Assembly: GCF_035917415.1 (NCBI RefSeq)
Contig: NZ_CP109073.1
Coordinates: 5,068,501-5,132,500, forward strand
From: Streptomyces sp. NBC_01803
Lineage (GTDB): Bacteria > Actinomycetota > Actinomycetes > Streptomycetales > Streptomycetaceae
DNA: 64,000 nucleotides
Direction: 5' to 3'
Translations under genes and position numbers: made by a program
The notes under the pieces: generated by a model
What the model was told of the DNA's origin: nothing
Seen by the model: only the letters and a program-made list of their open reading frames with translations
The model's database searches: none
In this document: piece by piece, positions 1,571-52,692 of the stretch
Layout: each line of letters opens with the position of its first letter
Position numbering within the stretch: position 1 is the stretch's first letter

Positions 1571-2662
1571 ATGGGGCGCGTGTCTGTACTGCACATCAAG
1601 GGACGAGTCCTCGTCGGCCCCGGGGACGACGTGCGGGACGAACTGTGGGTGATCGGCGGGCGGATCAGCCACGAACGGCCCGCAGCGGCCCGGGACGTCA
1701 CCACGCTCGACGGCTGGGTGCTGCCCGGCCTCGTCGACGCGCACTGCCACGTGGGCCTGGACGCGCACGGCGCGGTGGACGAGGCCACCACCGAGAAGCA
1801 GGCGCTGGCCGACCGGGACGCGGGCACGCTGCTCATCCGTGACGCGGGCTCGCCGGCCGACACCCGGTGGATCGACGACCGTGCGGATCTGCCGCCCGTC
1901 ATCAGGGCCGGGCGACACATCGCCAGGACCCGGCGTTACATCCGCAACTTCGCACACGAGATCGAGCCGGCGGACCTGGCCGCCACCGTGCGCCGCGAGG
2001 CGCGGCGCGGCGACGGCTGGGTCAAGATCGTCGGGGACTGGATAGACCGCGAGCACGGCGACCTCACGCCCTGCTGGCCCGCCGACACCGCCCGCGCGGC
2101 CATCGCCGCCGCCCACGAGGAGGGCGCCCGCGTCACCGCGCACTGCTTCGCCGAGGACTCGCTGCGCGACCTGGTCGAGGCCGGGATCGACTGCGTCGAG
2201 CACGCCACCGGGCTGACCGAGGACACCATCCCGCTCTTCGCCGAGCACGGCGTCGCCATCGTGCCCACCCTGGTCAACATCGCCACCTTCCCCCGGCTCG
2301 CGGCGGGCGGCGAGGCCAGGTTCCCCCGCTGGGCGGACCACATGCGGCGGCTGCACGAGCGCCGGTACGACACCGTGCGGGCCGCCCACGACGCCGGGAT
2401 CGCCATCTTCACCGGCACCGACGCGGGCGGTTCGCTCCCGCACGGGCTGATCGCCCAGGAGGTCGCCGAGCTGGTCGCCGCGGGCATCCCGGTCGAGGAC
2501 GCGCTCGGCGCCGCGACCTGGCGCGCGCGTGCCTGGCTGGGCCGGCCGGGACTCGCCGAGGGCTCCCCCGCGGATCTCGTCGTGTACGCGGCCGACCCGA
2601 GACAGGACGTGCGCATTCTGGCGGAGCCGAGTCATGTGGTGCTCAGGGGACGCATGTTCTGA
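1571..2662 (+). CDS. Metal-dependent amidohydrolase family protein
   Basis: A 363-residue amidohydrolase-superfamily enzyme (imidazolonepropionase/prolidase-like branch); the substrate cannot be told from sequence. The N-terminal beta domain is followed by the metal motif HxH in 'LVDAHCHVG' (about residues 58-60), a 'TAHCF' histidine motif near the middle and the catalytic aspartate in 'GTDAGGS' near residue 285, so the metal ligands look intact. It ends with the usual C-terminal 'GSPADLVVYAADPR' strand. The start is uncertain: GTG at 1544, ATG at 1571 or GTG at 1580. I chose 1571 because the conserved beta strand begins just after it. It stands alone, divergent from ectA. Confidence 0.8.
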   Translation: MGRVSVLHIKGRVLVGPGDDVRDELWVIGGRISHERPAAARDVTTLDGWVLPGLVDAHCHVGLDAHGAVDEATTEKQALADRDAGTLLIRDAGSPADTRWIDDRADLPPVIRAGRHIARTRRYIRNFAHEIEPADLAATVRREARRGDGWVKIVGDWIDREHGDLTPCWPADTARAAIAAAHEEGARVTAHCFAEDSLRDLVEAGIDCVEHATGLTEDTIPLFAEHGVAIVPTLVNIATFPRLAAGGEARFPRWADHMRRLHERRYDTVRAAHDAGIAIFTGTDAGGSLPHGLIAQEVAELVAAGIPVEDALGAATWRARAWLGRPGLAEGSPADLVVYAADPRQDVRILAEPSHVVLRGRMF

Positions 2663-2845
2663 TAAGCGGCGCGATTGCCCCCTGTCAACCATGTGATTAA
2701 AACTCACCTGATTGTGTGAAGTTACAGGAGACTACTGACGTTTGAGCGTTTAAACGTCGATGATGGCCGCGTCCCTGTTACCGGTGCCTGGATTCCCCTG
2801 TCCGGTCGCCCCGGTGACGTCATGCCATATCAAGGGGTTCCACAC

Positions 2846-3877
2846 GTGTACAACTCTGCCTACCGCCGACTCGGTTCACGCCGGTCGGCGGTGTTGGTCG
2901 CCACCACCGCCGCGCTGCTGGGGTCCGTCTCCCCGGCTCTCGCGGACGACGGTGACCAGGATGAACGGGGCACGGCGAGCGCCGCGGTGCTACGCACCGG
3001 TCTGGATGTCTCGCTGTTGAGCGGCACCGCTCAGGTGCCGCTCAACGTAACGCTCAACGAGGTGACCGCTCCGGAGAGCGAAAGTGAAACCGTGCTCAGC
3101 GCCAGCCTGGACGGTGTCCAGGACGGCGAGTCCTTCGAGGTGCTGCGGGCCGATGTGGCCGCCGCCAGCGCCGAGTCGGACGAGGCGGGCTCCCGCGCCG
3201 AGGTCACGCTGGCCGAAGCGAAGGTCCACGTTCCCGGACTTCCGCTGACGTCGGTGATCGAGCTCGAAGCGGTGACCGCCAGTGCGATCTGCGCCACGGG
3301 GGAGGCGCCTGTCGCTGAGGCCGACTTCGGGGCCGAGGCCCTGGTGCTCGGCCAGCACGTCGACCTGACCGTCGAGGGCACCACCGAGGTCACCGTGCCC
3401 GGTGTGGGCCAGGTGACCCTGGCGCTGTCCAAGACGGAGACCACCGACACCACCGCCGCGGCCACCGCCCTGGACCTCATGGTGTCGATCAACCCGGCCA
3501 ACCTGAACGTCGCGACGGTCGACGGTCACATCACCCTCGCCGAGGCCGAGTGCACCACCGCGGCCGGCACGGGTGGTTCGGCCTCCGGTGGCTCGGCCAC
3601 CGAGGGCTCGGCCACCGAGGGTTCGGACGCCGGTACCGCCACCGAGGGCACTGACGGTGACGACGCCGGCTCCGCCAGCGAGGGCACCGACGGGGACGAC
3701 ACGCAGTCCGTCTCCGGTGGCAGCAGCGCCGATGGCGACGGTACCGACCTCGCCGAGACCGGCAGCGACTCCAACATGCCGCTGCTCGCGGGTGGCGCCG
3801 TGGCGCTGCTCGGCGCGGGCGCCGGGGCCCTGTTCCTGGCCCGTCGCCGTGCCGCTCGCACCACTGCCGCCGGCTGA
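2846..3877 (+). CDS. Secreted LAETG-anchored surface protein (sortase substrate)
   Basis: A 343-residue exported protein. It has a Sec signal peptide ('RRSAVLVATTAALLGSVSPALA', cleavage near residue 34) and a beta-rich acidic middle of unknown function. A Gly/Ser/Thr/Glu/Asp-rich stalk follows (roughly 3560-3740, repeating SATEG and EGTDGDD). The cell-wall sorting signal at the C-terminus is LAETG, then a hydrophobic segment, then an RRR-rich tail. LAxTG is the motif preferred by streptomycete class E sortases (family knowledge). GTG at 2846 is preferred because AAGGGG lies 8 bases upstream; an ATG at 2822 is also in frame. A perfect hairpin follows the gene. The ligand or role of the exposed domain is unknown. 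Confidence 0.85.
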   Translation: MYNSAYRRLGSRRSAVLVATTAALLGSVSPALADDGDQDERGTASAAVLRTGLDVSLLSGTAQVPLNVTLNEVTAPESESETVLSASLDGVQDGESFEVLRADVAAASAESDEAGSRAEVTLAEAKVHVPGLPLTSVIELEAVTASAICATGEAPVAEADFGAEALVLGQHVDLTVEGTTEVTVPGVGQVTLALSKTETTDTTAAATALDLMVSINPANLNVATVDGHITLAEAECTTAAGTGGSASGGSATEGSATEGSDAGTATEGTDGDDAGSASEGTDGDDTQSVSGGSSADGDGTDLAETGSDSNMPLLAGGAVALLGAGAGALFLARRRAARTTAAG

Positions 3878-3923
3878 CAGCTGACGGACAGCTGACGGCC
3901 GCACCGCGGTAACGCACGCTGAG

Positions 3924-3950
3924 GGGGGACCCGGCACCATCGGGTCCCCC
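3924..3950. terminator. Bidirectional hairpin terminator
   Basis: GGGGGACCCG, 7-base loop, CGGGTCCCCC: a perfect 10-bp stem followed by a T-rich stretch. It separates the plus-strand LAETG gene from the convergent end of the cob operon and can serve both. Confidence 0.8.
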
Positions 3951-3996
3951 CTGACTGCTTTCCCGTCCGTTCTCCGTCGGTTCCCGTGGGGTCCCG

Positions 3997-5124
3997 TCAG
4001 CGGGTGCCCGCCCGGGCCAGCGCCGCGATGAGGGCGTCGGTCGTCGCCCGGTCGCGGACCGCCAGGCGCAGCCAGCCGGGGCTCAGCCCCGGGAACGTGT
4101 CACCGCGCCGCACGGCGTAGCCCAACTCGCGCAGCCGCAGCCGCAACGCCGCCCCGTCGGGGTGGTGCGCCAGGACGAACGGCCCGGCGGAGTACGCGGT
4201 GGCCATACGTACGGAGGCGAACGCGCCGAGCCGGGCCAGGAGATGGGCACGGTCCGCGGCCGTCTCGCGGGCGGCTTCCGCCGCTTCGGCCAGCGCCCGC
4301 TCCGACGAACACGCCTCCGCCGCCGCCAGCGCGGGCGCCGACACCGGCCACAGCGGCTGGCCGTGGGCCAGTGCCTCGATCAACTCCGGGGCGGCCAGCA
4401 CGTATCCGATCCGCAGGCCCGCCAGCCCCCACGTCTTGGTCAGGCTGCGCAGCACGACCAGGCCCGGCAGCGACCCGACGGCCGGTACCAGCGACTCCCG
4501 TTCGCCCGGCACCGCGTCCATGAACGCCTCGTCCACCACCAGCACCCGCCCCGGCCGGGCCAGTTCGGCGATGTCCGGGGCGGGGTGCAGCACGGAGGTG
4601 GGGTTGGTCGGGTTGCCCACCACGACGAGCCCGGCGTCCTCCGGCACGGCGTCCGGAGCCAGCCGGAAGCCGTCCGCCGCGCGCAGGATCACCCGCCCGA
4701 CCTCGTGCCCGGCCGCCCGCAGCGCCGCCTCCGGCTCGGTGAACTGCGGGTGCACCACGACCCGTCGGCCGTTGACCGGCAGCGCCCTGGCGAGCAGGAC
4801 GAACGCCTCGGCGGCGCCGGCCGTCAGCAGCACGCACTCCTGTGGCAGGCCGTGCCGCCGGGCCACCGCGCGGCGGGCCGCCCGGCCGTCCGGGTACGCG
4901 GCGAGGTCGTCGAGCGAGGCGGCGATCCGGTCCCGCAGCCAGGGCGGGGGAGTCCCGGCGCGCACGTTGACCGCGAGGTCCACCAGCTTCGCCCCACCGG
5001 TGTCGCGCAGTTCGGCGTCTCCGTGGTGCCCGAGGTCGGTGGGTCCGGCCGGTTCGGCCGGTTCGGTGGGATCGGTGGGTTCGGCCGGTCCGGTGGGATC
5101 GGTGGGTTCAGTGGGCGTGGGCAT
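3997..5124 (-). CDS. cobC: CobC-like PLP-dependent aminotransferase-fold enzyme (Rv2231c family)
   Basis: A class I/II aminotransferase-fold enzyme, related to L-threonine-O-3-phosphate decarboxylase, expected to supply the aminopropanol arm of cobalamin. Visible motifs are 'NPTNPTS', the 'VVDEAFMD' aspartate and the PLP lysine in 'RSLTKTWGLAGLRIGY'. It is the last gene of the cob operon. The N-terminal 35-40 residues are a low-complexity run of TEP/TDP/AEP repeats before the folded part begins at 'LVDLAVNVRAG'. ATG at 5124 overlaps the preceding cbiX by 17 bases; an ATG at 5160 in the same frame would overlap by 53. The repeats are probably a disordered tail. Confidence 0.85.
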   Translation of the reverse strand: MPTPTEPTDPTGPAEPTDPTEPAEPAGPTDLGHHGDAELRDTGGAKLVDLAVNVRAGTPPPWLRDRIAASLDDLAAYPDGRAARRAVARRHGLPQECVLLTAGAAEAFVLLARALPVNGRRVVVHPQFTEPEAALRAAGHEVGRVILRAADGFRLAPDAVPEDAGLVVVGNPTNPTSVLHPAPDIAELARPGRVLVVDEAFMDAVPGERESLVPAVGSLPGLVVLRSLTKTWGLAGLRIGYVLAAPELIEALAHGQPLWPVSAPALAAAEACSSERALAEAAEAARETAADRAHLLARLGAFASVRMATAYSAGPFVLAHHPDGAALRLRLRELGYAVRRGDTFPGLSPGWLRLAVRDRATTDALIAALARAGTR

Positions 5125-6046
5125 GACCGTGCTCGTGGTGGTGTCCGTGACCGTGCCCATGGCCGTGGTGGCCGTCGTCGTCGGGGTGGTGGTGCGGCTG
5201 CTGGGGCATGCCGACCTTGTCGGCGAAGCCCGGCAGCGCGACGCGGTAGACGCAGGCGTCGCAGTTCATCCGGATGTCGCCCTCGATGGCCTCCCGGTAT
5301 CTGGCGACCACCAGACCCGCCAACTCCTCCGTGGGGCCTATGACATCGGCACACCGGACGTCCGTCTCCGGCCGGTCCGCCGCCCACGCCCGTGCCTGCT
5401 CCCGCACCCGCTCCGGCAGCACGCCGGTGAAGAGGAAGTACGGCAGCACCACGACGCGGCGGGCGCCCAGCGCCCGGCAGCGTTCCAGCCCGGCGGCGAC
5501 GTCGGGAGCGGCCAGCGAGACGAACGCGGTCTCCACGCCCGCGTAGCCGCGCCCCTCCCACAGCAGCCGGGCCGCCTTGAACACCTCCGCGTTGGCGTCC
5601 GGATCGGTCGAGCCGCGCCCGACCAGCAGCACGGTGGTCCCCGCCCGGCCGCCGTCCCCGCCCAGAGCCTCGTCCACCCGCCGCTCCAGCACGTCCAGCA
5701 GGGACGGGTGCGGGCCCAGCGGGCGGCCGTAGGCGAACGACACGCCCGGCTGCCGCAGCTTCTCGCGGGTCAGCGCGGCCGGGATGTCGCCCTTGGCGTG
5801 CCCGGCCGCCACCAGCATCAGCGGGACGGCCGCGAAACGCCGCACGCCCCGCTCCACCAGTCCGGCCACGGCCTCGGTGAGCGGCGGCGGCGACAGCTCG
5901 ATGAACCCGCCCGCGACCGGCACCCGCGGGAGGTGCCGCACGGCGAGGTCCTGGACGAACGAGCGGAACGCCTGCGCCCCTTCGTCGTCCCGGGTGCCGT
6001 GGCCCACGACGAGCAGGGCGGGCGCGGACGGATCTGACGGATTCAC
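5108..6046 (-). CDS. cbiX: Sirohydrochlorin chelatase CbiX with histidine-rich tail
   Basis: A two-domain, 312-residue class II chelatase inserting cobalt (or iron) into sirohydrochlorin. The N-terminal 'LLVVGHGTRDDEGAQAF' carries the catalytic-type histidine, and a second chelatase domain begins near 'TVLLVGRGSTDPDANAEV'. The C-terminus has a 'CDACVYR' motif and then a tail with about 15 histidines in roughly 28 residues, alternating with glycine, as in metal-storing CbiX proteins. GTG at 6046 forms a GTGA overlap with the stop of cobH, so translation is coupled. The histidine tail is encoded in the segment overlapping the possible longer start of cobC. Confidence 0.92.
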   Translation of the reverse strand: MNPSDPSAPALLVVGHGTRDDEGAQAFRSFVQDLAVRHLPRVPVAGGFIELSPPPLTEAVAGLVERGVRRFAAVPLMLVAAGHAKGDIPAALTREKLRQPGVSFAYGRPLGPHPSLLDVLERRVDEALGGDGGRAGTTVLLVGRGSTDPDANAEVFKAARLLWEGRGYAGVETAFVSLAAPDVAAGLERCRALGARRVVVLPYFLFTGVLPERVREQARAWAADRPETDVRCADVIGPTEELAGLVVARYREAIEGDIRMNCDACVYRVALPGFADKVGMPQQPHHHPDDDGHHGHGHGHGHHHEHGHAHAH

Positions 6047-6663
6047 TGGGACTCCTCGTGACGAGCGGGTGCGGGTGCGGGTGAGAGCGCGGGCGCGGGG
6101 GAGTAGAGCAGGGCGTTGAGGGCGGCGGCGGCCACGGCCGAGCCGCCCTTCTCGGAGACGTTGCTGACCGCCGGCAGACCGCTGTCGCGCAGCGCCTGCT
6201 TGCTCTCGGCCGCCCCGACGAAGCCGACCGGCAGCCCGATCACCAGGGCCGGCGCGGCGTCGAGAGCGATCAGCTCGAAGAGCGCGGTGGGCGCGCAGCC
6301 GATCACCCACACCGCGCCGGGGCCGACCTCGGCGAGTGCGAGCCGCACGGCGTGTGCCGAACGGGTGAGCCCCGGCGTGGCCTTGGCCTGCGCGAGCCGG
6401 CAGACGGTGGCCCGCCGGGTGATCCCGGCCGCGACCATCTCCACATCCGTGACGACCGGCGCGGCCCCCTCGTGCAGCGCGTGGTGTGCCGCGCGCAGGG
6501 CGGCCTCGTCGGTGACGAGGTCGGTCAGGTAGTCGGGGTCCGCGCTGGCGTGGATCACCCGCTCCACCACCGCGCGGGTCAGCGGCGGCAGCCCGGAGGT
6601 GTCCACGCGCGAGCGCAGGATGCGGTACGACTCCTCCTCGATGGGATGAACGACACGGGTCAC
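6043..6663 (-). CDS. cobH: Precorrin-8X methylmutase
   Basis: A 206-residue CobH/CbiC methylmutase that moves the C11 methyl group to C12, giving hydrogenobyrinate or cobyrinate. Motifs include 'HPIEEESYRILRSRVD' at the N-terminus, 'VVTDVEMVAAGITRR' and the glycine-rich 'GLPVGFVGAAESKQAL'. Length is normal. The GTG start at 6663 overlaps the ferredoxin stop as GTGA, and its own stop overlaps the cbiX GTG, so it is embedded in the coupled operon. Confidence 0.94.
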   Translation of the reverse strand: MTRVVHPIEEESYRILRSRVDTSGLPPLTRAVVERVIHASADPDYLTDLVTDEAALRAAHHALHEGAAPVVTDVEMVAAGITRRATVCRLAQAKATPGLTRSAHAVRLALAEVGPGAVWVIGCAPTALFELIALDAAPALVIGLPVGFVGAAESKQALRDSGLPAVSNVSEKGGSAVAAAALNALLYSPAPALSPAPAPARHEESQ

Positions 6664-47874: not shown

Positions 47875-50487
47875 TCACGGCAGGATCTCGATGTACCCGT
47901 CGGTTCCGTGCACACGGATCCGCTGCCCGTCCCGGATCAGCCGGGTGGCCTGCTCCACGCCCACGATGGCCGGCAAGCCGTACTCCCGGGCGATCACTGC
48001 GCCATGGGTCATCAGGCCGCCCACCTCTGTCACCAGGCCCGCGATTCCGACGAACAGCGGCGACCAGCTGGGGTCCGTGAAGGTCGTGACCAGGATGTCG
48101 CCCGCTTCGAGATCGGCCTCAGCCATGTCAAGGATGACGCGGGCCCTTCCCTCGATGGTCCCGGCGGAGACCGGTAGGCCGATCAGGGCGCCGGCCGGCA
48201 CGTCGTCGCGCCGGTACGCCCCGGTGACGGCCTCACCATCCGAGGTGAGCACCCGGGGCGGGGTGAGCGCGTGGTACGACCGGAACGCGTCCTTGCGCTG
48301 CTGGATGAGCTGGTCATCCACCTGGTTCGAGCGCACGACGGCGTGGAGTTCCTGGAACGTGAGGTAGAAGATGTCCTCCTTGTCAGGAAGCACGTTGGCC
48401 CGCATGAGGCGCTCGGCCTCCTCCAGCAGGGCCTGCCTGTAGACGAAGGAGCGGCTGACGATGTCGTACTTCGGGTATTCCCGATACCCGATGAAGGTTC
48501 GGACCCGGTCGATCATCCGCTTGGCCTCGTCGGCTTTCCGGTCCCCGTCCGGCAGGGTCCGCAAGCGTGACAGCACGTCCTGTTCCTTCTTCCGCGCCCT
48601 CTGCCGCCCTTGCTCGAAGCGCCGTTCGGCGGCGCCCGGCTCGAAGTTCCTGACGTGGTCGAGGATCACGGGCACGAGCGTGGTGGGGCGCTCGCGCCAA
48701 CGTGGCCTCGTGATGTCGATCTCGCCGACGCAGCGCATGCCGTACCGGTCGAGGTAGGCATCCATGGCGTCGCGCGCGTCGGTCCCGCCCGCGAGCTTCG
48801 CCAACTCGTCCAGGAAGCCCTCGTCCAGGAAGCCCACGTCCTCGACGCCCCGCAGGAACGCCACCACCTCCGGATGCGGGCGGATCACGTCCGCGACGTC
48901 GAGCAGCGCCAGTCCCATCTCCGACGTGATGTTGTCGGGGGCGGACAGCGTGAGCGTGTCAGCCGCGTTCTTCTCGCCCAGCCACTCCCGCAGCTTGTCG
49001 TTGAGCCACCACGTGGCCTCCATCCCCGCCATGATCGCCTGAAGGTTCAGCGGATCACTGAGGACTCGCTTGTGCTCCTCGAAGGCATCCAGCAGGAAGT
49101 CGAACAGCGCCGGTCCGGTCTTCGTCCGGATGTCGCGCTTCAGGGTGGCGATGGACGCCTGGCTGCGCTTGATCAGCTCGGTGACGATGGCCGGATCGGT
49201 CTCGATCGGGGCGGACGCACCGCTGGTCGGCGGTCCGCCGGGACCCGCGTCCGGGAGCGAGGGGACGAACTCGTCGCGGTCGAGGACGGTCTCCAGAGCG
49301 TCCCTGATCAGCGGATCGCCTCTCCCTATGACGTCCAGGAGGCCGGCGCGGCTCGCGGGCGAGGCCAGGCGCCGGGTGACGTCGACGAACAGCCTCCCAC
49401 CGGCCTCGTGCATCGGTGCCATGGCCGTCAGCTGCCACACGGAGAGCCCCAGGGGCTTCATGGGGTCGGTCATCATCTGCTGATGACCAACGGAGACGTA
49501 GACGTGATTCTCCTGGTCGCCGGTCTCGGGGATGGGGAACAGCGTCGTGATCGGCCGGCTCTGAACGATCTGGAAGCCCTCGTCGACCAGGCACCATTCG
49601 ATGTCCTGCGGGCGGCCGAAGTGCGCTTCGATCTGCCGCCCGAGCCGCACGAGCCGCACGACCTGCGCATCCGTCAGCGCCGGCTGCTCCTGCCGCTGCG
49701 AGTCGATCGCCACGTCCCGCGTACCGCCGGCCGGCAGGGCGTGAACGGCACGCTGTTTGGCGGCGATCGCCTTGGCGACGACTTCGCCGTGTCGCACCGT
49801 GAAGACGTCCGGGTTCACCAGGCCGGAGACCAGGGCCTCGCCGAGGCCGAAGCTGGCGTCCACAGTGGCGACCTTCCGGTTGCCCGTGACGGGGTCGGCC
49901 GTGAACAGGATGCCGGCCGCATGCGGGAAGACCATCTGCTGCACGACCACGGCCATGTGGACCGTACGGTGGTCGATGCCGTTCCGCTGGCGGTAGGTCA
50001 CGGCCCGCTCGGTGAACAGCGAGGCCCAGCACCGGCTGACGTGCTGGAGGATCGCCGTCGGCCCCACGACGTTCAGGTACGTGTCCTGCTGGCCGGCGAA
50101 GGAGGCCGTCGGCAGGTCCTCTGCCGTCGCGCTGGATCGGACGGCGCAGGCGGCTTGCTCGCCGAGCTGGGCGAGCGCGCGGGTGATCGCCGCCGCGAGA
50201 TCGCCCGGGATGGCGATCCCTTCGATGGTCCGACGAATCCGCGCGCTGAGCGTGCGGATCGCCTCCCGGTCGTCCGGGTTCAAGCGCGACAACTGATCGA
50301 GCCGATCGTCGATCGACGGCGCCTCCGCCATGATCCGCCGGAAGGCGTCCGTCGTCACGCAAAAGCCGCCCGGCACGTGGACGCCTTCGATCCGCGACAG
50401 CCCGCCCAGGTGCGCGCCCTTGCCGCCAACGACCGCGACCTGCGTCTCGTCAACCTCGTGAAGACCCCACACATACCGCTCCATCAT
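47875..50487 (-). CDS. rph: Rifampin phosphotransferase (PEP-synthase-like), Rph
   Basis: An 870-residue three-domain dikinase-like protein, the length of Rph enzymes, which inactivate rifamycins by ATP-dependent phosphorylation of the ansa chain. The ATP-grasp domain begins 'VAVVGGKGAHLGGLSRIEGVHVPGGFCVT' and includes 'AVRSSATAEDLPTASFAGQQDTYLNV'. The substrate domain follows from about residue 320. The C-terminal swivelling domain carries the phosphohistidine in 'GGLMTHGAVIAREYGLPAIVGV' (His near residue 828). ATG at 50487 has GGAGG 7 bases upstream and overlaps the stop of the 89-codon ORF before it. The upstream rifamycin-associated element supports Rph over a PEP synthase. Confidence 0.88.
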   Translation of the reverse strand: MMERYVWGLHEVDETQVAVVGGKGAHLGGLSRIEGVHVPGGFCVTTDAFRRIMAEAPSIDDRLDQLSRLNPDDREAIRTLSARIRRTIEGIAIPGDLAAAITRALAQLGEQAACAVRSSATAEDLPTASFAGQQDTYLNVVGPTAILQHVSRCWASLFTERAVTYRQRNGIDHRTVHMAVVVQQMVFPHAAGILFTADPVTGNRKVATVDASFGLGEALVSGLVNPDVFTVRHGEVVAKAIAAKQRAVHALPAGGTRDVAIDSQRQEQPALTDAQVVRLVRLGRQIEAHFGRPQDIEWCLVDEGFQIVQSRPITTLFPIPETGDQENHVYVSVGHQQMMTDPMKPLGLSVWQLTAMAPMHEAGGRLFVDVTRRLASPASRAGLLDVIGRGDPLIRDALETVLDRDEFVPSLPDAGPGGPPTSGASAPIETDPAIVTELIKRSQASIATLKRDIRTKTGPALFDFLLDAFEEHKRVLSDPLNLQAIMAGMEATWWLNDKLREWLGEKNAADTLTLSAPDNITSEMGLALLDVADVIRPHPEVVAFLRGVEDVGFLDEGFLDELAKLAGGTDARDAMDAYLDRYGMRCVGEIDITRPRWRERPTTLVPVILDHVRNFEPGAAERRFEQGRQRARKKEQDVLSRLRTLPDGDRKADEAKRMIDRVRTFIGYREYPKYDIVSRSFVYRQALLEEAERLMRANVLPDKEDIFYLTFQELHAVVRSNQVDDQLIQQRKDAFRSYHALTPPRVLTSDGEAVTGAYRRDDVPAGALIGLPVSAGTIEGRARVILDMAEADLEAGDILVTTFTDPSWSPLFVGIAGLVTEVGGLMTHGAVIAREYGLPAIVGVEQATRLIRDGQRIRVHGTDGYIEILP

Positions 50488-50753
50488 CGCGATACCTCCG
50501 AGGCAGCCGTGCTCCGTCGCACTGCGGTGGCCGATCGAATCACCGGCGCCTCCACATCTGTCGAACCTCTCGTCGAGCACGTGCTCATCCCTGGTTGCCT
50601 TCCCTCTGACAAGTCGGCCGGCCGCTCCGCCCAGTCGGTCGGCGCGCACCCCCGCACCTCCGCGCCGAGCACCCGCAACCACAACCGCACCGCCGGTCCC
50701 CCCACTGGTTCGACGTCACCGCGTCCCCCAAGCGTCGACAACGACACACGCAC
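50484..50753 (-). pseudogene. Relic of a GT1 glycosyltransferase (rgt-like) forming the rph leader ORF
   Basis: An 89-codon ORF starting with GTG (GGGGG 7 bases upstream), beginning '(M)RVSLSTLGGRGDVEPVGG', then 'AVRLWLRVLGAEVRGCAPTD' and 'WAERPADL'. This matches the first ~45 residues of GT1 antibiotic glycosyltransferases (family pattern MRVLLxTxGSRGDxxPLVALAxRLRxLGAEVRxCAPPDxAE). After residue ~46 the similarity ends. The ORF stops in an ATGA overlap with rph. Rifamycin glycosyltransferase genes are another class of RAE-linked genes, so this is probably an rgt remnant left by a deletion. It may now serve as a coupled leader. Confidence 0.68.
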
Positions 50754-50810
50754 GCCGTGCCCCCAATTCCGCAGGCAGTGGCATCGGCCGACGATTCTGC
50801 GCCGCGACCC

Positions 50811-50829
50811 GGGTCTTGCGGCAAGCCCC
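50811..50829. promoter_or_regulatory. Rifamycin-associated element (RAE)
   Basis: GGGTCTTGCGGCAAGCCCC is a 19-base near-palindrome matching, at all but about two positions, the conserved RAE found upstream of rifamycin-inactivating genes in actinomycetes (GGGGCTTGCGGCAAGGCCC as I recall it). It lies 57 bases before the glycosyltransferase relic and 323 bases before rph. A TATAG element sits just upstream on the minus strand. It predicts rifamycin-inducible expression. Confidence 0.85.
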
Positions 50830-50852
50830 CCAGGGCGCTATACGTTGAGAGT

Positions 50853-50876
50853 GGCAAGGAGAGAGCTCTCCTTGCC
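50853..50876. promoter_or_regulatory. 11-bp inverted repeat adjoining the RAE
   Basis: GGCAAGGAGAG-AG-CTCTCCTTGCC, a perfect 11-bp inverted repeat with a 2-base spacer, 23 bases upstream of the RAE with respect to rph. It could be an operator or a terminator isolating the rph promoter. Confidence 0.6.
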
Positions 50877-51025: not shown

Positions 51026-51910
<885 letters not shown>

Positions 51911-51912
51911 AC

Positions 51913-52692
51913 ATGAGTGGACTGCTGGCCGGAAAACGCATCCTCGTCACCGGGGTGCTCCTGGAATCCTCGATCGCCTTCCACACCGCCAGGCTGGCGC
52001 AGGAGGAGGGAGCCGAGATCCTCCTGACCGGCTTCGGCCGGGTGAGCCTGGTGGAGCGGATCGCCAAGCGGCTGCCGAAGCCGGTGCCCGTCATCGAGTT
52101 GGACGTGCAGAACCAGGAGCACCTGGACACCCTCGCCGCCCGCGTCTCCGAGCACTTCGGCGAGGGCATCGGCCTGGACGGCGTGGTGCACTCCGTCGCG
52201 TTCGCGCCGCAGGACGCCCTCGGGGGGAACTTCCTGAACACCGGCTGGGATTCGGTCGCCACGGCGGTCGAGGTCTCGGCGTACTCGCTGAAGTCGCTGA
52301 CCATGTCCCTGCTTCCGCTGCTGGAGCGGCGCGGCGGCTCGGTCGTCGGCATGGACTTCGACGCGCAGGTGGCGTGGCCCAAATACGACTGGATGGGCGT
52401 GGCCAAGGCCGCCCTGGAGGCCACCTCGCGCTACCTCGCACGGGACCTCGGCCACAAGAACATCCGGGTCAACCTCATCTCGGCCGGCCCCATCAAGTCG
52501 ATGGCCGCCAAGTCGATCCCCGGCTTCGAGGAGCTGGCGGACGTGTGGGACACCCGCGCGCCCATCGGCTGGGACCTCGCCGACCCGGACCCGGCGGCGC
52601 GCGGCGTGGTGGCGCTGCTGTCCGACTGGTTCCCCAAGACGACGGGCGAGATCGTCCACGTCGACGGCGGCGTCCACATGATGGGTGCCTGA
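51913..52692 (+). CDS. fabI: FabI (InhA-type) enoyl-ACP reductase
   Basis: A 259-residue NADH-dependent enoyl-ACP reductase, the final step of each fatty acid elongation cycle. 'ILVTGVLLESSIAFHTARLAQEEGAEILLTGFGR' is the InhA-type nucleotide region. 'VVHSVAFAPQDALGGNFL' contains the InhA S94 region. The catalytic Tyr/Lys lie in 'KYDWMGVAKAALEATSRYLARDLG'. 'NLISAGPIKSMAAKSIPGF' is typical. The order fabG-fabI and the sequence pattern match actinomycete InhA. Confidence 0.95.
   Translation: MSGLLAGKRILVTGVLLESSIAFHTARLAQEEGAEILLTGFGRVSLVERIAKRLPKPVPVIELDVQNQEHLDTLAARVSEHFGEGIGLDGVVHSVAFAPQDALGGNFLNTGWDSVATAVEVSAYSLKSLTMSLLPLLERRGGSVVGMDFDAQVAWPKYDWMGVAKAALEATSRYLARDLGHKNIRVNLISAGPIKSMAAKSIPGFEELADVWDTRAPIGWDLADPDPAARGVVALLSDWFPKTTGEIVHVDGGVHMMGA

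Follow-up and report, generated by a model that had tools for sequence, protein, structure and literature searches.

The window analysed here, i.e., a stretch of 64,000 nucleotides (nt) of Streptomyces sp. NBC_01803 (contig NZ_CP109073.1, positions 5,068,501 to 5,132,500), carries on its minus strand the rifamycin phosphotransferase gene rph downstream of a rifamycin-associated element (RAE). The rifamycin resistance genes controlled by RAEs include rgt, rph, rox, helR and arr. An open reading frame (ORF) of 89 residues, hereafter the leader, lies between the RAE and rph; it is a remnant of the glycosyltransferase gene rgt and it ends on the start codon of rph. This remnant leader is real and more general than first claimed, and it would represent a variant form of translational coupling in a locus of a type already known. 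The frame set by the old rgt start is kept ahead of rph in leaders of many different lengths, and such a frame-locked remnant probably feeds rph by termination-reinitiation.

The features of the locus (window positions 47,875-50,876) are given below with their coordinates in the window, the separate elements following one another in this order on the minus strand.

50853-50876, minus strand: inverted repeat GGCAAGGAGAG-CT-CTCTCCTTGCC; its centre lies some 36 nt upstream of the RAE.
50837-50842, minus strand: TATAGC, candidate −10 hexamer of an upstream promoter (P1), read from the sequence by analogy with the P1/P2 arrangement given for mycobacterial helD in the relevant part of PMC10719064.
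50811-50829, minus strand: RAE, a 19-bp palindrome found by pattern match; its TTGCCG is a possible −35 hexamer of a downstream promoter (P2).
50794-50799, minus strand: CAGAAT, putative −10 hexamer of P2, at a spacing kept across rph loci.
50484-50753, minus strand: leader ORF, GTG start, 89 amino acids, from the ORF call and the matches to Rgt and GtfB.
50634-50753, minus strand: rgt-derived part of the leader, about codons 1-40, delimited by residues 1-40 matching the Rgt model and by the limit of DNA homology.
50484-50633, minus strand: second part of the leader, which holds the Shine-Dalgarno sequence of rph; similar DNA stands beside rph elsewhere and there is no credible rgt match.
50495-50499, minus strand: GGAGG, read as the Shine-Dalgarno sequence of rph within the leader.
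50484-50487, minus strand: ATGA, read as the leader stop lying over the rph start.
47875-50487, minus strand: rph, rifamycin phosphotransferase of 870 amino acids (NF041857; PDB 5hv1).

The original prediction placed a 19-base RAE at 50811 and a GTG-started ORF 57 nt further on, and both are found there (GTG at 50753, end at 50484). An RAE consensus, used with up to 3 mismatches, gave two matches at 50811-50829, i.e., one site read on both strands, vs. 0.10 expected from shuffles. With a looser pattern and up to 1 mismatch, the genome of 5.85 Mb holds two RAE sites. The leader TGA overlaps the rph ATG (50487-50485) and the junction reads ATGATG. The alignment with 5hv1 begins at the second Met; if translation of rph began at this codon, the overlap would be TGATG, of 1 nt. 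In both cases the pair has the architecture of coupled genes, i.e., overlapping stop and start codons and a Shine-Dalgarno sequence inside the upstream ORF. Rph itself passes the full-length curated cut-off of NF041857 (1652 bits, cut-off 999), and its residues 2-869 align end to end with 5hv1.

The N-terminus of the leader is glycosyltransferase-like, as had been predicted: residues 1-40 match positions 1-38 of the 411 of the NCBIfam Rgt model (NF000354, E 7e-6) and residues 1-54 match GtfB 1iir (E 9e-8). The score of 25 bits fails the full-length curated cut-off of 800 bits, thus the leader is not an Rgt enzyme but a remnant; it must be noted that this cut-off is not reached either in any of the 86 genomes that have an rgt-like match at E 1e-100. 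A Pfam search of the leader gave no match at E 1. Among its 46 relatives in the protein database, 2 carry PF03033, and the 12 named ones are called hypothetical protein. At the DNA level, this part of the window is 71-77% identical to intact RAE-rgt loci elsewhere (L011-L015, L018, L021) over the RAE, the 5' untranslated region (5'UTR) and about 110-140 nt of the ORF. Since RAE, 5'UTR and N-terminus are homologous to those of intact RAE-rgt loci, the leader is a remnant of rgt. When the relative L055 was compared with 23 rgt loci (some places being counted twice), the homologous DNA extended as far as leader nt 107-132, the limit being nt 114 for 19 of the 23. The predicted loss of similarity after the start, followed by an ORF end over the rph ATG, is thus confirmed.

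As judged by eye, rgt homology stops near codon 38 in the leaders of rph and helR alike; a GC-rich direct repeat near this codon might account for the common limit. Of 246 genomes, 49 contain DNA like that of the second leader half, and all 30 occurrences inspected (L113-L142) are beside rph. A search for its origin in the 23 rgt loci gave just three weak matches (E 0.4); otherwise such DNA was encountered beside rph.

With the window Rph as query, 80 named loci were obtained, 79 of which have an RAE at most 2.6 kb upstream. In addition, rph was found in 94 of the 246 genomes (taken as Streptomyces) and all 94 upstream regions were taken, which gives an rph-chosen set. The combined set contains 174 loci, 164 of them unique; when up to 2 mismatches are allowed, the stretch examined contains an RAE in 161 of the latter. 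By record title, the named RAE-rph loci belong to Streptomyces and 14 other genera. A full-length leader (about 260 nt) is present, e.g., in Actinacidiphila (L033), Nonomuraea (L060), Acrocarpospora (L063) and Micromonospora (L066, L077), and many loci have a shortened one. The relatives carry the same glycosyltransferase-derived ORF, and not a leader of another origin. The arrangement is not peculiar to this locus: the same leader, full or shortened, precedes rph across Streptomyces and other genera, and helR of the window genome is preceded by another rgt-remnant leader.

In 103 of the 161 RAE-rph loci, the start codon of the former rgt can be recognised. The distance from this start to rph, taken modulo 3, puts 75 of them in the coupled frame (i.e., ending on xTGA), 20 in the rph frame (fused) and 8 in the third frame. 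When each distance is counted once, the numbers are 42, 14 and 8, respectively (binomial p 1.3e-7). The rph start assignment is doubtful in L093, L215, L035 and L038; without these four loci the distinct distances are 41, 12 and 7 (p 3e-8). At least five of the eight third-frame loci (L073, L187, L194, L111, L038) have a start site that is doubtful by eye and were retained in the count. The rph-chosen set gives 39, 9 and 4 loci, or 28, 8 and 4 distinct distances.

Expressed as outcomes, the 103 leaders comprise 73 whose stop falls between −8 and +8 nt relative to the rph start, 19 in-frame fusions, 10 early stops and a single out-of-frame overlap (L038, again with its doubtful rph start). Exactly xTGA is the stop in 68 of the 73, which span 8 to 95 codons in 42 different lengths; an SD-like (Shine-Dalgarno-like) word stands ahead of rph in 63. 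Start-kept leaders of 250-300 nt differ in length by multiples of three only, bar one early-stopper. In L155 and L167, stretches are read in another frame (by eye), yet the leader still ends at the rph start. In nine loci rph begins exactly at the old rgt start, which is the endpoint of the series. A mixed remainder of 35 loci has unreliable start assignments. In the rph-chosen set, the 92 loci with an RAE comprise 37 stops at the start, 8 fusions, 9 with rph at the old rgt start, 7 early stops and 31 without a recognisable canonical start. A chance ORF was rejected on this frame test.

This distribution was compared with simulated deletions in 15 full-length leaders, with lengths matched to those observed and each distinct length represented by a single locus (n=54). 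Leaders that stop at the rph start are in excess (34 seen vs. 19.9 expected, p 1e-4), out-of-frame overlaps are depleted (1 vs. 8.3, p 0.002) and fusions do not differ significantly (13 vs. 16.6). A first simulation (n=60), which included six unsimulated lengths, gave 36 vs. 21.5 at the start, 10 vs. 10.5 early and 1 vs. 9.4 overlapping. The frame thus seems to be constrained, and the peptide is neutral: over 15 loci, the ratio of non-synonymous to synonymous substitutions (dN/dS) is 0.91 in the first half of the leader and 1.04 in the second half, vs. 0.31 in codons 4-43 of rph. In 14 loci where the start is lost, the frames are 4 coupled, 5 fused and 5 other, which differs from the start-kept loci (Fisher p 0.002). 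The distinct RAE-to-start lengths are 3, 2 and 4 over the three phases (48, 11 and 12 by locus), and they form a weak 5'UTR control as 40 of 71 loci share the length 57. It seems that the frame is kept because the leader delivers ribosomes to the resistance gene behind it or, at the minimum, prevents a wrong-frame crossing of the start of this gene.

The probable course of events, i.e., termination-reinitiation from a frame-locked remnant, would be the following. (i) rgt would once have been the first gene after the RAE, and a deletion would have removed most of it, sparing the promoter, the 5'UTR and the start codon with about 40 codons. (ii) When the RAE promoter fires, ribosomes would load at the old rgt start. 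(iii) The leader would be translated into a peptide without conserved sequence. (iv) The ribosomes would stop on ATGA and re-initiate at rph, aided by the GGAGG of the leader. (v) Further deletions would recur, the survivors being mainly those that end the frame at the rph start or fuse rph to the old rgt start. (vi) As a final step, rph would take over the rgt start codon. The original prediction of an rgt deletion that leaves its promoter and start ahead of rph is retained in that the start is homologous and the rgt body is gone; it is amended in that the arrangement is not peculiar to this locus, the deletion and the coupling themselves being likely steps of the above course.

Several points weigh against this course. 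The deficit of early stops relative to the simulation (6 vs. 9.3 expected) is not significant (p 0.28) and 49 of the 161 loci have no recognisable canonical start, thus coupling is not obligatory. rph carries its own Shine-Dalgarno sequence. The start-lost control is small: 3 of its 14 loci share one GTA change, the alignment is uncertain at some of the start sites, and in many cases a different start codon is available in a frame that could serve. The loci are related; in a Fitch count (51 named loci), the coupled frame is preserved in 20 of the 33 changes that start from it (p 0.001), and overall 22 of 41 changes are multiples of three, which is weaker than the distinct-distance count. This reconstruction, in which leader length was mapped by parsimony onto the Rph tree, is crude since deletions cannot be reversed. 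Folding gives no indication of an rph start masked by the leader (the accessibility is 0.38 if the leader is present, 0.39 without it and 0.38 when shuffled, n=58), and control of rph by such a structure was rejected. Finally, no RAE-rgt-rph operon was found in the 94 rph-bearing genomes when a complete-looking rgt (E 1e-100) was looked for; 19 of them also hold an rgt at this threshold, none at most 20 kb upstream of rph on the same strand. The deletion of rgt is for this reason deduced from the homology of the start. Comparison with relatives, which had been proposed as a way to map the deletion, thus succeeds on the rgt side (nt 107-132) and leaves the rph-side breakpoint unmappable.

Part of these points would fit an explanation in which the old rgt start is still used as a good initiation region and wrong-frame traffic over the rph start is selected out, stopping at the start being of no benefit in itself. 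The depletion is indeed strong for out-of-frame overlaps and not significant for early stops, loci with a lost start or an early stop exist, and no hidden rph start appears on folding. However, when overlaps are excluded, stops at the start are still in excess (36/59 vs. an expected fraction of 0.43, p 0.003, with the counts of the n=60 simulation). Moreover, the rph start reads as an overlapping xTGA in 73/73 at-start loci vs. 1/9 of the loci where rph begins at the old rgt start. Avoidance alone is thus rather unlikely, termination-reinitiation being preferred.

That the leader is untranslated debris, with a frame pattern inherited by chance from few ancestors, is very improbable. It would agree with the neutral peptide and with the fact that the leader is dispensable, as the RAE-to-rph distance goes down to 52 nt. 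It does not agree with one frame common to 42 different start-to-rph distances, with the absence of the pattern where the start codon is lost, or with the separate series ahead of helR described below. A regulatory leader peptide or attenuator that senses rifamycin or the state of translation is hardly credible and was rejected: it would suit the position between an inducible-type promoter and a resistance gene and the overlap of stop and start, but dN/dS is about 1, neither peptide nor length is conserved (8 to 95 codons), the accessibility of the rph start is unaltered by the leader, and the target of rifamycin is RNA polymerase rather than the ribosome.

The same genome has a second RAE (G000:C1:3379930), followed by the first codons of rgt; this short frame closes with a TGA that a single base separates from the helR ATG. 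Residues 1-430 of the helR product match NCBIfam HelR (771 bits, cut-off 750) and the leader stretch is detected as rgt-like (E 6e-10). In this genome both rph and helR are thus preceded by rgt remnants, and no intact rgt is present at E 1e-100, the best match having 97 bits and an internal stop. At this second RAE the upstream inverted repeat is incomplete (by eye).

A helR homologue is found in 156 of the 246 genomes. rgt lies less than 350 nt upstream of helR on the same strand in at least 38 genomes, a minimum obtained from 110 rgt places, 61 selected helR places and the rph places of the 19 genomes also holding rgt. An RAE is present in the stretch for 100 of the 110 helR loci examined. 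Among the 91 helR loci with an RAE-to-helR distance below 450 nt, 23 have an rgt-derived leader with its stop at most 8 nt from the helR start, 29 are fused in frame or begin at the rgt start, 5 have an early stop, one has a 13-nt overlap and 33 have no leader start. Nine loci with a longer distance include complete and broken rgt. These class frequencies are not blind, as 80 helR regions were picked by eye and sites with a neighbouring rgt match were left out; L262 and L263, scored as fused by the script, have RAE-to-helR stretches of 1.5 kb in genomes with rgt beside helR. The helR series thus supplies the parent operon, i.e., RAE-rgt-helR, that is missing for rph.

helR would have taken the same path as rph, starting from such operons. 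On balance, RAE operons may be regarded as a start-codon relay: the first gene would be repeatedly eroded to a leader of arbitrary sequence and length, the frame alone would be selected, and the next gene would inherit promoter, ribosome flow and start codon, many times and in parallel for the unrelated rph and helR. In L096 (Streptomycetaceae bacterium MP113-05, 2247-6592) the order is RAE, rox, rph, with the RAE 1.7 kb upstream of rph. This rox encodes a rifampin monooxygenase (NF033145, 873 bits, cut-off 800) and its stop overlaps the rph start as GTGA, behind GGAGG. This overlap supports the view that rph is a second ORF by habit.

A hexamer nAnAAT begins exactly 11 nt past the RAE in 161/161 rph loci vs. 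10/636 control windows, and this constant spacing supports the RAE as a part of the promoter. It agrees with what PMC10719064 gives, in the part concerned, for mycobacterial helD, where the RAE overlaps the −35 of the downstream promoter P2. The inverted repeat upstream of the RAE reaches a best arm score of at least 9 in 128 of the 161 loci (mean 9.7 vs. 4.8 in mononucleotide shuffles). Its form is GGCAAGGAGA-N(2-8)-TCTCCTTGCC, about 36 nt upstream of the RAE and with a loop of variable length; in L006 and L009 both arms have matched changes (by eye).

In the titles and abstracts of the papers listed, a coverage that does not extend to the founding RAE and HelR papers, the rgt-derived leader at RAE loci is not described. 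The founding papers are reportedly Spanogiannopoulos 2014 and Surette 2022. The passages on RAE of PMC12802891, PMC10719064 and PMC8655204 do not mention it either, and in PMC10719064 these passages name rgt, rox and helD/helR together with RAE. The present locus resembles other RAE-controlled resistance genes by its 19-bp palindrome upstream and, as in the passage of PMC10719064 on mycobacterial helD, by an RAE that would overlap the −35 of a downstream promoter; it differs in that the first gene is a remnant and the resistance gene is the second ORF. With the Streptomyces RAE-rgt-helR operon (L255) it shares homologous RAE, 5'UTR and first codons, and helR is the second gene there; rgt is complete in that operon, whereas remnants precede helR and rph in the window genome. 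Of 14 overlapping ATGA/TGATG pairs assayed in Haloferax and E. coli, 13 were strictly coupled (PMC6728339). The 4-nt overlap of stop and start and the Shine-Dalgarno sequence inside the upstream ORF are shared with these pairs. Here, on the contrary, the upstream ORF is a neutral remnant whose frame is kept while sequence and length are not, and coupling is the likely reading.

Coupling is usually deduced from two working overlapping genes, for which protein constraint and frame constraint are inseparable. In the RAE leaders the upstream ORF has lost its protein constraint, thus the frame constraint is visible alone in dozens of natural deletions, and the start-lost loci form a small built-in control. 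They also indicate how, step by step, an inducible promoter can pass to another resistance gene; if the relay is true, these loci would be a graded fossil series of a downstream gene becoming the first gene of its operon. With regard to annotation, some N-termini of rph and helR products and some «hypothetical proteins» at RAE loci are rgt leftovers.

Some individual loci can be mentioned. In L035, L086, L110 and L112 (Streptosporangium, Planotetraspora, Sphaerisporangium) rph is open in frame from an rgt-type start, and their Rph may begin with rgt-derived codons. The GTG start of the leader is replaced by GTA in L164, L168 and L169 (G166, G181 and G071, respectively). Tandem repeats of the GTCTCGG type occur in L164 and L169, and repeats of the GCAGTT type in L040. 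L044 is an RAE-rph locus with an 8-codon leader on plasmid SNP1 of Streptomyces nigrescens HEK616. In L072 (Frankia nepalensis) and L244 (G249), rph has no RAE in the stretch examined. In the window, the divergent neighbours of the locus (51191-52692) are fatty-acid enzymes, i.e., FabG, a 3-oxoacyl-ACP (acyl carrier protein) reductase (TIGR01830, over cut-off), and FabI, an enoyl-ACP reductase (NF005908, over cut-off).

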